Below are positions 14,717 to 19,081 of a stretch of DNA of 64,000 bases, one piece after another (position 1 is the stretch's first letter; each line of letters opens with the position of its first letter). This DNA is from an uncultured Dehalococcoidia bacterium (GTDB lineage: Bacteria > Chloroflexota > Dehalococcoidia > Lucifugimonadales > Lucifugimonadaceae), in contig OY282385.1 of the NCBI GenBank assembly GCA_958295935.1, forward strand, positions 1 to 64,000, written 5' to 3'. The position numbers were made by a program, and so were the translations under genes. The notes beneath the pieces are model-generated. The model saw only the letters and a program-made list of their open reading frames with translations. It did no database searches and had not been told where the DNA came from.

Positions 14717-16159
14717 CTATTTAGCTAGTCTGCTCGACGGTCTGCGGGATTTCTTACTGCTGCCTCTGAAGCGGTAGTCGGGGGCGGCTATGAGTCTTTC
14801 GGTTACTACGAGACCGTCTCTCAGCCTGGATGCTATGGCTTCCGAGTAGAGTGAGCCGAAACCGCCTTGGTATTCGGCTTTGGAGTTTTTGGCGGCGCTT
14901 TCGAGCAGCACTCGGCTTGTGATCACTGTGGGGATGGCTGCATCGTGGCGATGTACGATCAGCTGGTAGAGCTTTTCCTCTGCCCAGGGTGTGGAGACTT
15001 GTGCGCCGAGGTCGTCGAGTATGAGGAGTTCGGCGTATTTGACGCTGTCGAACAGCCTATCGAAGGTGGTGCGCCCGACGTTGGAGTATCCCATTCGTAG
15101 GTGGTCGAGGAGGTTGGGGGTTTTCCAGAAGAGGGCCGGTTCTCGCTTCTCGATGCGCGCGTTTGCGATAGCGACGGCGAGGTGTGTCTTTCCGACGCCG
15201 GTTGGTCCTGCGAGGTAGAGCCATCCGTCGGGGTGTCCTGCGAAGGATTTGGCGGCCTTGAGGGCTTCCCGCAAAGTGGCCCTGTGTTCGGTTGTAGAGC
15301 CGGAACCTCCTCGCTGGTTAAAGCTATCGAGGGTCATAGAGGCCTGCAATCTGGGTTCAATGCCGGGGTCGTCGAGGCGGGAGTTGTACCATCCCGGCCG
15401 TATGTGTGCGACGGTGGAGAGCACGGGATCGGTTATGCGCGAGCGCAATCTGTCGGGCAAGTCTTCGAGGGGGGTGGAGCTGATTATGACCGTTGGCATC
15501 CGGCCGTCGTACCTGTGGGCGAGTATCTGGTCTAGTTTTTCCTCTGCCCATGGTGAAGGGGAGTGTGCGGTCAGGTCGTTGAGAATCAGCAGTGGTGCGG
15601 AGAGGGTTTGATCGAAGAGTTCATCGTAGTTGGCGGTGGCTTCGGGTCCGAATGCCGCGCGTAGGTGGTCGAGGAGTTCAGGTACTGCGACGAAACGGGT
15701 GGGGAGTCCTCTTGCCATGGCCCTGTTGGCTATGGCGGCTGCGAGGTGTGTCTTTCCTGCTCCGGAGGGGCCTATGAGTGTGAACCATCCGGCCGGTCGG
15801 TCAGCGAACCTCTCGGCCTGTGTGCAGGCTCTTCGGAAGGAAGAGGGTTCTACGTAGCCGTCTCTCCCTGCGGGATCGATTGAGTCGAACGTGAGCGTCT
15901 TCAGGGGTCCGAGTTCGCTGTAGTCGAGCAGTCGCTCGGACTGATTGACTCCCCATGCTCTTTCCTGGCACGTGCATGGGGCTACTCTTCCGAATTCGGG
16001 AGTACCTACGGGGGCCTTGAGGTTGAGCCATCTTGCGTCGTCGCAAACGTTGCAGTGGTACTCATCCTCAGCGGTTGCCGCGCTGCTGCTGGCGGTTGCG
16101 GTACCAGCGGATAAATTGGTCAGACCTGACCTCTTGAGAATTTCCTCCAGGCTTTCCAT
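14717..16159 (-). CDS. Helicase loader-like protein with two DnaC/IstB AAA+ domains
   Basis: A 480-residue protein. Its N-terminal region has a probable zinc site (Cys36, Cys39, Cys62, Cys64). Two consecutive DnaC/DnaI-type ATPase domains follow, each opening with a T(F/L)DS motif (about residues 88-265 and 276-450). Walker A is GPSGAGKT (130-137) in the first and GPTGVGKT (318-325) in the second. Walker B is LILND in the first, where Asn194 replaces the Mg-binding Asp, and LILDD in the second. Both keep an SR(I/L) segment that could hold an arginine finger. The family loads replicative helicase; here dnaB and a DnaD-like gene lie directly upstream. Its start overlaps the DnaD-like gene by 92 bases. 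The alternative role, an IstB transposition helper, is unlikely without a transposase. Confidence 0.85.
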   Translation of the reverse strand: MESLEEILKRSGLTNLSAGTATASSSAATAEDEYHCNVCDDARWLNLKAPVGTPEFGRVAPCTCQERAWGVNQSERLLDYSELGPLKTLTFDSIDPAGRDGYVEPSSFRRACTQAERFADRPAGWFTLIGPSGAGKTHLAAAIANRAMARGLPTRFVAVPELLDHLRAAFGPEATANYDELFDQTLSAPLLILNDLTAHSPSPWAEEKLDQILAHRYDGRMPTVIISSTPLEDLPDRLRSRITDPVLSTVAHIRPGWYNSRLDDPGIEPRLQASMTLDSFNQRGGSGSTTEHRATLREALKAAKSFAGHPDGWLYLAGPTGVGKTHLAVAIANARIEKREPALFWKTPNLLDHLRMGYSNVGRTTFDRLFDSVKYAELLILDDLGAQVSTPWAEEKLYQLIVHRHDAAIPTVITSRVLLESAAKNSKAEYQGGFGSLYSEAIASRLRDGLVVTERLIAAPDYRFRGSSKKSRRPSSRLAK

Positions 16160-16808
16160 GTTCGGTCTGCTTCTCCCTCCGGGGTCGTCTCAGCACGGCT
16201 GCTACGTAGCTCCAGTTTCTTGCGTCTCGTTCGACAGCCTCTCGTATGGCATCCAGTACGTCGTTTTCCGAGTATTCGGATATGGCATCGCGAATTTTTT
16301 CGGCGACCATGGGCGTGATCGGGCCGATATTTTCCTCGTATGCGACGGCAGCGGGAGTGGGTTTTAGCGCGGCGTGTAGGTAGGGCCACGTCTCCAGTTC
16401 TGCGTGATCGGTATCCGATTCGCTGCCGGTTGCGGCGGCGCGGTGGAGTTCCGGGCGCCGCTTGGCCAAGGCTCTTCGCACCGGCTCGGTATTGAGGTAG
16501 TAGTTGTCGGGTGCGCGGAGTTCGGGGGTTCTTAGCAGAGTACCACGTTGTACTGCCTGGTCGAGGATGGCTGAGATCCTGTCTTGTAGTTCTTCGTCGT
16601 CGGCGCCGAGCATGGCTGCCACGGTTGGGTCAGAGGCGAGGTCGGCTTGCGTCAGGGACGGCGGGAAGCCTCTTTTCTGGTGCAGGGCCCATATTGCTCG
16701 CAGTGTCAGGCGTAGTTCGTCGGGGTCGGATATTTCGACCAAGAGTTGGGCAAGCAGGGGGTTTGGCACGGGAGTGGAGCGGTATCCCCTGGGAAATGGC
16801 GATGGCAT
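16068..16808 (-). CDS. DnaD-like replication initiation protein
   Basis: A 246-residue protein. Residues about 155-210 match the DnaD/DnaB_2 domain, with YEENIGPITPMVAEKI and the following WSYVAAVLRR. In Firmicutes this domain serves primosome assembly on DNA. The N-terminal half is helical with a winged-helix-like composition but is not clearly recognisable. It starts two bases after the dnaB stop and runs 92 bases into the helicase-loader gene, so the three are translated from one message. The genetic setting (DnaB helicase, loader) supports a loading role. Confidence 0.75.
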   Translation of the reverse strand: MPSPFPRGYRSTPVPNPLLAQLLVEISDPDELRLTLRAIWALHQKRGFPPSLTQADLASDPTVAAMLGADDEELQDRISAILDQAVQRGTLLRTPELRAPDNYYLNTEPVRRALAKRRPELHRAAATGSESDTDHAELETWPYLHAALKPTPAAVAYEENIGPITPMVAEKIRDAISEYSENDVLDAIREAVERDARNWSYVAAVLRRPRREKQTEHGKPGGNSQEVRSDQFIRWYRNRQQQRGNR

Positions 16809-16810
16809 GG

Positions 16811-18268
16811 TCAGTTGGCGCTGGGCGCGTGCACGCCGGCGGGGATCGTTTGCTCCATGAATTGGCCTATGGAGTCACGCACTGCCATCATGAGGTCATC
16901 TGTGGGTCCGTGCCTGTGCTTGGCGACGATGATTTCGGCGAGGCCTCGGGGGTAGGGGGAGCTGGGGTTGTTCCTGTTCCATTCCTCCTCGGTCATGTAC
17001 TTGTCGACCCGGTGAATGAACATAACTACGTCGGAGTCCTGCTCGATGCTGCCGCTTTCTCGTAGGTCGGAGAGTACGGGCCTGTGGGATGGGCGCTGCT
17101 CTATGGCCCGGCTCAACTGTGATACTGCAAGCACGGGTACGTTGAGGTCTCTTGCCATGCCCTTTAGGGAGCGTGAGATTTCGCTGACCTCTTGTGATCG
17201 GTTCTGGTCTCGGCGCCAGCCTGATCCACCTCCGGTTATGAGTTGCATGTAGTCGACGACGGCGAAGTCCATTCCGGCTTCGAGTTGGAGTCGTCGGGCC
17301 TTGCCTCTGATTTCGGCGACTGTCTGCAAGGGGGTGTCGTCTACGTATATGGAGAGGTCTGACAAGAAGCCTATGGAGTCGACGATGCGCGCCTGCTCAT
17401 CTTCACTTACGAGGCGTGTTCTTATGCGGTGCATGTTGACCCTTGCCTCGGCGGAGAGTAGCCGCATGGCGACCTGTTCGCGTCCCATTTCGAGGCTGAG
17501 TATGCCTACGCGCGCTCCGTTGACTGCGGCATTGCGCGCCAAGTTCAGCGCCAGGGTGCTCTTGCCCACGCTGGGGCGGGCGGCCAGTACGATCATGTCT
17601 GACCGCTGGAGGCCTCCCAGCAGGGCATCGAGGTTTGGGAAGCCGGACGGTATGGGCCCCGTGGTCTGCTCATCGAGGTCAGGCACGGGCGAGGTTGACT
17701 CCAGGTATGGCTCCAAGGCTTCCCTTATGGGGATGAAGTCTCGGGTTCTCGTTCCGGATCGGACGCTGAAGAGGAGGTCTTCGGCGTTGCTGAGCGCGAG
17801 GTCTATGTCGGCCTGATCCTGGAAGCCGATGTCAGCTATCTTGTGCGACACGTCGATGAGCCGTCTCATGGTCGAGGTTCGGTAGACTATTTCGCCGTAG
17901 TGCTTTACGTGTACGGAGGTGGGCACGACGGTCACGATGTGGTTGAGGTATAGGCTGCCGCCGACTTCTTCGAGTACTCCCATGGTTTCGAGTTCGTGGG
18001 CAAGGGTTACCTGGTTTATGGCTTCGTTGCGGTTCAGCAGTTCAATGCAGGCCTCGAAACACCATCGGTTGCGCTCGCGGTAGAAGTCTTCCGGCTTGAG
18101 GAATCCCGAGATGGTTGTGATGGACTCTCCGTCTATAAGCAGGGACCCGATGACGGATTCCTCGGCCTGAATGTCATGTGGTGGCAGTCGGTCAGCTTGC
18201 AAGGCCTTGAAGCTCCAATGGGGGGGCGTACGCGGGTCGTGCGGCCCTCGCGTTTGCGCCTTTTGCAA
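16811..18268 (-). CDS. dnaB: Replicative DNA helicase DnaB
   Basis: A 485-residue hexameric helicase of the replication fork. The N-terminal collar domain (about residues 28-130, beginning PPHDIQAEESVIGSLL) is followed by the RecA-like motor. Walker A ARPSVGKST is at 230-238, the Walker B region is DFAVVDYMQLI, and the DnaB-specific segments LSQLSRAIEQR and DLRESGSIEQDSDVV are present. No intein is seen in the motor region, where inteins are common. It follows rplI by 40 bases, the frequent bacterial order, and is co-directional with the DnaD-like and loader-like genes. Confidence 0.96.
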   Translation of the reverse strand: MQKAQTRGPHDPRTPPHWSFKALQADRLPPHDIQAEESVIGSLLIDGESITTISGFLKPEDFYRERNRWCFEACIELLNRNEAINQVTLAHELETMGVLEEVGGSLYLNHIVTVVPTSVHVKHYGEIVYRTSTMRRLIDVSHKIADIGFQDQADIDLALSNAEDLLFSVRSGTRTRDFIPIREALEPYLESTSPVPDLDEQTTGPIPSGFPNLDALLGGLQRSDMIVLAARPSVGKSTLALNLARNAAVNGARVGILSLEMGREQVAMRLLSAEARVNMHRIRTRLVSEDEQARIVDSIGFLSDLSIYVDDTPLQTVAEIRGKARRLQLEAGMDFAVVDYMQLITGGGSGWRRDQNRSQEVSEISRSLKGMARDLNVPVLAVSQLSRAIEQRPSHRPVLSDLRESGSIEQDSDVVMFIHRVDKYMTEEEWNRNNPSSPYPRGLAEIIVAKHRHGPTDDLMMAVRDSIGQFMEQTIPAGVHAPSAN

Positions 18269-18308: not shown

Positions 18309-18836
18309 TCAACCGCTTATTTCGGGTGCGCCGGCAGGGGGAGTTTCTTCGTTCTCGCCAGAGCCACCCTCATTTGGGGAAGGCTTTTCGGAGTCGGATT
18401 TGACGAGGATACGGAGGTCTGCTTCCACTTCTCCGGGGAATCTGACGGGTATGAGGTAGTTTCCGATGGTGCGTATTGGTGCGGGTATTCGGACTGATCG
18501 TCGGTCTACTTCGCGCTGTATCAACTCTGAGACCTTTTCGGCAATCATGGCGCTTGTTACTGAGCCGTACAAGCGGCCGGTGGGGCCTGAGCGTACTTCG
18601 ACCTCGATGGGGGTTTCTGCGATTCCCTCAGCGACGTCTCGCCACTCCTGGGCCTCTCTCAGCCTGCGCTTCTCTGCGGCCTTGCGGAGCTTGTCGGCCC
18701 TTTGCAATTCGTCTCGAGTGGCGAGTACGGCGAGTTTGTTGGGCAGCAAATAGTTTCGTGCAAATCCGTTCTTGACTTCCTTGACGTCTCCGGCCCTTGC
18801 GGTTGGCCGCACGTCTTGCAAAAAGAGCACCTTCAT
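18309..18836 (-). CDS. rplI: 50S ribosomal protein L9
   Basis: A 175-residue large-subunit protein that binds 23S rRNA. The N-terminal domain (MKVLFLQDV, then KEVKNGFARNYLLP) and the long connecting helix rich in Lys/Arg/Glu are diagnostic. The start is the ATG at 18836 with AGAGGA eight bases upstream, not the longer ORF beginning at 18986. Compared with the usual length of about 148, it has a roughly 25-residue acidic, Pro/Gly-rich tail. It leads the dnaB cluster; rpsF, ssb and rpsR, often upstream, are absent. Confidence 0.96.
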   Translation of the reverse strand: MKVLFLQDVRPTARAGDVKEVKNGFARNYLLPNKLAVLATRDELQRADKLRKAAEKRRLREAQEWRDVAEGIAETPIEVEVRSGPTGRLYGSVTSAMIAEKVSELIQREVDRRSVRIPAPIRTIGNYLIPVRFPGEVEADLRILVKSDSEKPSPNEGGSGENEETPPAGAPEISG

Positions 18837-19081
18837 ACGGTTCGATCCTCTACGGGGGCTTTGCTTCGCGCTCGATGCTGACTTGACCCGGGTCAGCCCG
18901 CTCGCTGCGTTCCCCTGACTGTTTTCCTTATTTCGCACTATAGCAGTTGCAGGCCGGCGGTCTGCAAGCGTCCTGGTCTTTGGCATGGTTCAGGGATTCC
19001 TTTATATTCCCCCCATAGATCACCCAGTATGGTCGGAGGCTCGTCCGCGTCATGCGGCGAGCAGGGAGCAACGGAGCAACG

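Follow-up and report, generated by a model that had tools for sequence, protein, structure and literature searches.

A Chloroflexota helicase loader with two tandem AAA+ modules, unequally damaged in Dehalococcoidia and in other classes

Textbook helicase loaders possess one AAA+ module, and the use of ATP by AAA+ loaders during opening of the DnaB ring has so far been argued from such one-module proteins. AAA+ proteins with two modules per chain exist in another clade, type II, which includes p97/Cdc48, NSF and Rix7. The closest described systems are Escherichia coli DnaC (6qel, 6qem), DnaI of Bacillus and Geobacillus (2w58, 4m4w), which joins an N-terminal domain to AAA+, and the DnaI-like loaders of phages; DnaI and the phage loaders have one module. 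Passages of Brezellec et al. (2016; PMC5109545) describe several domestications of phage dna[CI] genes, one of them in Chloroflexi, and note that dciA has been lost from genomes with a resident dna[CI]; in the main text of that paper, supplements aside, the Chloroflexi gene is described without the words "tandem" or "fused".

The gene studied here lies in a stretch of 64,000 nucleotides (the window) from a Dehalococcoidia genome. It spans positions 14717-16159 on the minus strand, as do all features given below, and is an ORF with an ATG start encoding 480 amino acids. Its N-terminal domain contains a Cys4 motif (C36-x2-C39 and C62-x-C64; 15968-16054), all four cysteines being invariant in a 20-row alignment, and three of them invariant, with the fourth conserved at 90% or above, in a larger alignment of 73 rows. 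This motif is probably a Zn site, and the domain is presumed to bind DnaB. Two AAA+ modules with 41% identity to each other follow: M1 (approximately residues 81-262; 15374-15919), with a predicted fold like that of DnaA and DnaC, and M2 (approximately residues 269-465; 14765-15355), the presumed ATPase core, with a predicted fold like DnaC 3ecc. Both match Pfam IstB_IS21 (PF01695; E 7.3e-30 for the protein), and in a genome-wide search two matches above the family cut-off fall within the loader gene. M1 carries the Walker A motif GPSGAGKT (residues 130-137; 15749-15772), the Walker B motif LLILNDLT (residues 190-197), in which Asn194 is encoded by AAC (15578-15580), and, by alignment, a probable Arg finger, Arg241 (15437-15439). 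M2 carries Walker A (GPTGVGKT, residues 318-325; 15185-15208), Walker B (LLILDDLG, residues 378-385 with D382/D383; 15005-15028), in the preferred alignment a probable Arg finger, Arg445 (14825-14827), and Arg463 at the sensor II position (APDYR; 14771-14773), which is invariant in 20 rows and aligns with DnaC R237. The earlier note on this DNA had described one chain with a four-Cys site and two DnaC-type modules, with Asn194 in the first and Asp382 in the second; the two PF01695 matches, the two sets of Walker motifs and a re-reading of the sequence confirm the architecture, both residues and their coordinates.

By sequence, the protein belongs with the initiator-clade AAA+ loaders. A phmmer search against structures retrieved 6qel_G (E 4.2e-11) and 2w58 (E 8.8e-11), both modules of the predicted fold aligned to DnaC/DnaA with Z ~21 in VIA-align, and the top NCBIfam match was PRK08116, at 185.4 bits narrowly short of its cut-off of 189. 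Like DnaC, the loader has Walker A and B, a probable Arg finger and, in M2, sensor II; it shares the ssDNA-contact positions, with Arg in place of K143 and Trp in place of Y179, and it would likewise act on DnaB. Unlike DnaC, it has two AAA+ modules and a Cys4 N-terminus, and the sensor I Asn is replaced by Ser in M1 and Arg in M2. That Asn lacks conservation among loader modules in general: the position (DnaC N203) is occupied by Arg416 in the window M2 (14912-14914) and by Arg in M2 of 63/120 chains of the order, and Asn is retained in M1 of 34/36 chains from other classes. The N-terminal domain followed by AAA+ recalls DnaI, and two modules per chain recall the type II proteins, to which a predicted arrangement of low pTM aligns, but in sequence the loader is nearest to DnaC/DnaI. 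It is almost certainly of the same gene family as the Chloroflexi dna[CI] that passages of PMC5109545 describe, and dciA is absent in both cases; we found no match to DciA anywhere in the 2.75-Mb one-contig genome.

The genomic context points the same way, a dnaB gene being the loader's partner. The gene order is rplI-dnaB-dnaD-like-loader on one strand, the loader being last. The block opens with an ORF that we named from its sequence as ribosomal protein bL9 (rplI; 18309-18986) and whose position is conserved, followed by the replicative helicase DnaB (485 aa; 16811-18268; TIGR00665, 460 bits against a cut-off of 385) and a conserved neighbor, a DnaD-domain protein (246 aa; 16068-16808; PF07261, TIGR01446). 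Among multi-module loci, some of them from genomes entered twice via two collections, 190 of 210 have both the dnaD-like gene and dnaB upstream of the loader; those without the pair include loci near contig ends. A DnaD-type or replisome-organiser gene also adjoins the phage DnaI-like loaders at L242 and L243.

The earlier note had proposed a survey of Chloroflexota for this architecture, and the survey finds it widespread in the phylum. Counting any match, tandem or not, loader relatives are present in 73/76 genomes of the family, 140/147 of the order, 146/148 of the class and 145/201 of the phylum. We examined 191 tandem chains, 155 from Dehalococcoidia (60 families) and 36 from other classes (17 families); the sample is not random, many chains being the top matches of each search, and rows that were incomplete, split or oddly aligned (L039, L091, L094, L253, L254, L255, L256, L258 and L263) were dropped from the counts. 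The tandem build recurs in the same operon in Dehalococcoidia and in other classes, and its recurrence in 191 chains means that it is not a product of chance. The nearest named relatives are Chloroflexota records, including one MAG of the SAR202 cluster and a number of Dehalococcoidia MAGs. The best 80 loci listed from the named bacterial collection bear titles of Chloroflexi/Chloroflexota, Dehalococcoidia, Dehalococcoidales, SAR202, Anaerolineae or Anaerolineales, except for "Bacterium HR23" (L206) and one with a Proteobacteria label (L209). The latter, Proteobacteria bacterium Centralia_MAG_106, has a tandem loader of Chloroflexota type and is probably mislabelled. No relative was found among viral contigs, and none of the 283 matched phage records has one place covering at least 80% of the loader, nor does any of the 40 matched plasmid records have one covering 80%. 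Outside subscription journals and supplements, the literature on helicase loaders, DnaC and DnaI yielded no description of a tandem loader; the gene family is known, its double form unusual and apparently undescribed.

The point of interest is the unequal wear of the two modules, which is reversed between classes. We scored a module as damaged if it had lost either Walker B acid, GK[ST] or the putative Arg finger. In Dehalococcoidia, damage affects M1 in 54/155 chains (21/60 families) and M2 in 9/155 (6/60 families), while in other classes it affects M1 in none of 36 chains (0/17 families) and M2 in 13/36 (4/17 families); Fisher tests of this contrast, uncorrected for relatedness, give p 3.3e-9 when chains are counted and 0.0067 when families are. 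The trend is evident for acid loss alone (M1 41 and M2 8 in Dehalococcoidia; M1 0 and M2 4 elsewhere; p 0.0017 and 0.024). The main M1 lesion in the window's order changes the catalytic acid, at the residue after the Asn194 position, to Gly in 37/120 chains from 15 families, with seven changes on the FastTree tree of M2, three of them forced by starred branches. Among 109 Dehalococcoidia chains, 95 have the sensor II motif after M2 and 2 have it after M1; among 26 chains from other classes, 15 have it after M1 and 7 after M2. These counts still included the incomplete rows L255 and L258. Taken together, the damage and sensor II counts identify the weak module as the first in Dehalococcoidia and the second in other classes. 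Within a module, damage to the site goes together with loss of the Arg finger, but this association weakened from p 2e-5 to 0.047 under a softer damage rule. Faster evolution of M1 was not borne out by pairwise identities (mean 0.517 for M1 versus 0.506 for M2 over 990 pairs).

The explanation that we consider, on balance, probable is that this is a phage-derived loader of the DnaC/DnaI type with a duplicated AAA+ module, one copy serving as ATPase core and the other as a DNA-holding or regulatory tier. The gene would be the chromosomal Chloroflexota loader of the kind reported as domesticated from phage, its module having been duplicated in tandem behind a single Cys4 domain that may hold DnaB, probably in one early event. 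In Dehalococcoidia, M2 would hydrolyse ATP. M1 would be a second tier, holding on to ssDNA and binding ATP but hydrolysing little or none of it, and would help to keep the DnaB ring open or to time release; in other Chloroflexota classes these roles would be swapped. The earlier note had proposed a division of labor within the chain; one chain with two unequal loader modules is supported, Asn194 as the mark of that division is not.

One rival is that the second module is simply redundant, damage and deletion reflecting neutral decay with no division of labor. It draws on the repeated deletion of M1 (five changes on a FastTree tree, at least two of them forced by starred branches), on the restriction of N194 to the window genome, and on three of the 191 chains (L281, L282 and L324) that have lost acids in both modules. 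These three perhaps represent loaders without ATP hydrolysis, which may then be dispensable. An initial set of 131 chains contained none damaged in both modules, and a stricter P-loop rule raises their number to 12, many of which rest on a change of the first Gly of M2 to Ser in one family. Neutral decay does not, however, readily account for damage that is module-specific and reversed between classes, nor for the persistence of the tandem form across many families. Moreover, damaged modules remain full length and keep the residues that putatively contact ssDNA. The Trp aligned with DnaC Tyr179 is present in 382/382 modules, including 80/80 of those damaged by the stricter rule, and Arg or Lys occupies the position of DnaC Lys143 in 34/35 damaged modules of the initial set. 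This retention favors a DNA-holding role over plain decay. Tyr179 is one of the ssDNA contacts of DnaC according to passages of Puri et al. (2021; PMC8213410), which also report that altering any of five DnaC motifs abolishes ATPase activity and that loading by the same mutants is partly or hardly reduced; a damaged module can thus remain useful. We regard simple redundancy as rather unlikely.

Loaders that have returned to one module bear on the same question. The 20 single-module Dehalococcoidia loaders examined, among them 7 loci from a genus in the same family as the window, all combine the N-terminal Cys-pair motifs (one with an altered second pair) with one module, and all six that were included in the careful tree fall among M2. 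Their loci have dnaB at the same place and include those of small-genome lineages without a dnaD-like match. The earlier note had set one-domain homologues at the same locus against its own reading; such loci do exist, and to that extent the objection holds. As for the origin of the two modules, the careful tree recovers a clade of the Dehalococcoidia-type M1s (29 rows, support 100/99), and in most chains from other classes the M2s fall into a clade of their own (11 rows, support 96/96). AU tests, for groups named after the tree had been seen, gave p-AU 0.29 for all M1 as one clade, 0.145 for all M2 with the Dehalococcoidia single modules, 0.31 for M1 with the other-class single modules, 0.22 for M2 with all single modules, 0.11 for two separate duplications and 0.044 for a reversed-core clade. 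The cost is 6.7-7.7 log units for a tree that unites all M1 or all M2, versus 23.8 for two separate duplications. A single duplication therefore fits the sequences best and is favored, yet the AU tests allow one or two. A fuller scenario, which we put forward tentatively, would be a two-tier loader built by ancient tandem duplication, with an ATP tier and an ssDNA-grip tier whose roles were swapped between Dehalococcoidia and the other classes, with a return to a single tier in several lineages that lost the non-catalytic module. Lineages in which one module is probably hydrolysis-dead, reversed or deleted offer natural separation-of-function variants.

The earlier note had further suggested that two modules per chain might halve the stoichiometry of the loader ring against DnaB. 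In such an arrangement three tandem chains would form one six-module ring of alternating M1 and M2 on the DnaB hexamer, ATP being bound by M1 and hydrolysed by M2. In its favor, the linker between the modules is short, and the putative Arg finger of M1 survives in the chains with the M1 acid-to-Gly change (L301 being the one exception listed), as it should if M1 donates it to M2. Under alternation, however, a module without its Arg finger would leave the site of its partner without an Arg; in all 28 cases in which the Arg finger of one module is changed or unaligned, the acids and P-loop Lys of the partner are intact (28/28), which points to like-with-like interfaces and hence to two tiers. 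Single-module loaders in related lineages also argue against alternation, as do two AlphaFold models (pLDDT 85 and 90; pTM 0.59 and 0.65, too low to lean on and with the orientation of the modules not confident) whose alignments to p97, NSF and Rix7 chains extend over both modules (9yrc_D: Z 12, 297 residues, rmsd 3.7; 3j94_F: Z 12.7, 289 residues, rmsd 4.2). The majority of solved two-module AAA+ chains are of this stacked kind. The alternating ring thus appears unlikely and the halved stoichiometry is disfavored, if weakly, by the intact partners and the low-pTM models; under the two-tier reading, a one-to-one match of modules between the loader ring and the helicase ring would not be required. 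The Arg-finger assignment itself depends on the alignment: the invariant Arg corresponds to DnaC R220 in two of three MAFFT modes and in hhalign with phage, plasmid and DnaI loaders, and to R216 in the direct DnaC alignment and one MAFFT mode. Since the alignments disagree, we dropped a candidate loss of the DnaC Arg coupler R216 from M2; the Arg upstream of the invariant one varies among phage loaders too.

Asn194 proved incidental to the architecture. At the first acid position of Walker B in M1, 190/191 tandem chains, including 40/40 same-family tandem relatives, have Asp, and the window alone has Asn, which rules this Asn out as a conserved trait and as the sign of module division that the earlier note had seen in it. 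As far as sequence tells, it is a private lesion in an often-crippled module, and M1, with D195 intact, may still hydrolyse ATP. An assembly error or strain polymorphism could produce it by a single-base change (GAC to AAC), and no relative carries it, the nearest one compared being ~54% identical. We find either origin improbable: the genome is one contig, the frame is intact, and two more window-private changes fall at conserved columns of M1 (3/35 with Asn194) and one at those of M2 (1/44). In any case, either would touch N194 alone and leave the architecture aside. The least tenable reading, an IS21 IstB transposition helper, takes its appeal from the name of PF01695 and can be discarded given a score of 129.3 bits against the NCBIfam IstB equivalog cut-off of 200, the rplI, dnaB and dnaD-like neighbors conserved over the phylum and the lack of an istA gene next to them.

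Several further features of these loci were observed. The dnaD-like and loader ORFs of the window overlap by 92 bp in different frames (16068-16159), and most relatives also show an overlap of these two ORFs. The rplI ORF (18309-18986) has ~50 residues ahead of the usual MKVLFLQDV start, so that its true start is probably internal, and its tail is acidic and proline-rich. In small-genome lineages (L246-L252, L053-L055, L037 and L038) the interval from dnaB to the loader gave no dnaD-like match, and some of these lineages also lack M1. Genome G002 has two complete rplI-dnaB-dnaD-loader loci (L044 and L045), possibly through MAG contamination (4%). At L254 (2916-4345) the loader is split into two overlapping ORFs, M1 and M2, by gene fission or an assembly frameshift, and at L253 (2982-3611) a 210-aa piece with an M2-like module lies directly downstream of a tandem loader, giving three modules at one locus. 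Finally, a DnaA-like ORF with a weak match to the module profile lies downstream of a single-module loader (L120, 4103-5758), where dnaA may adjoin the loader gene.
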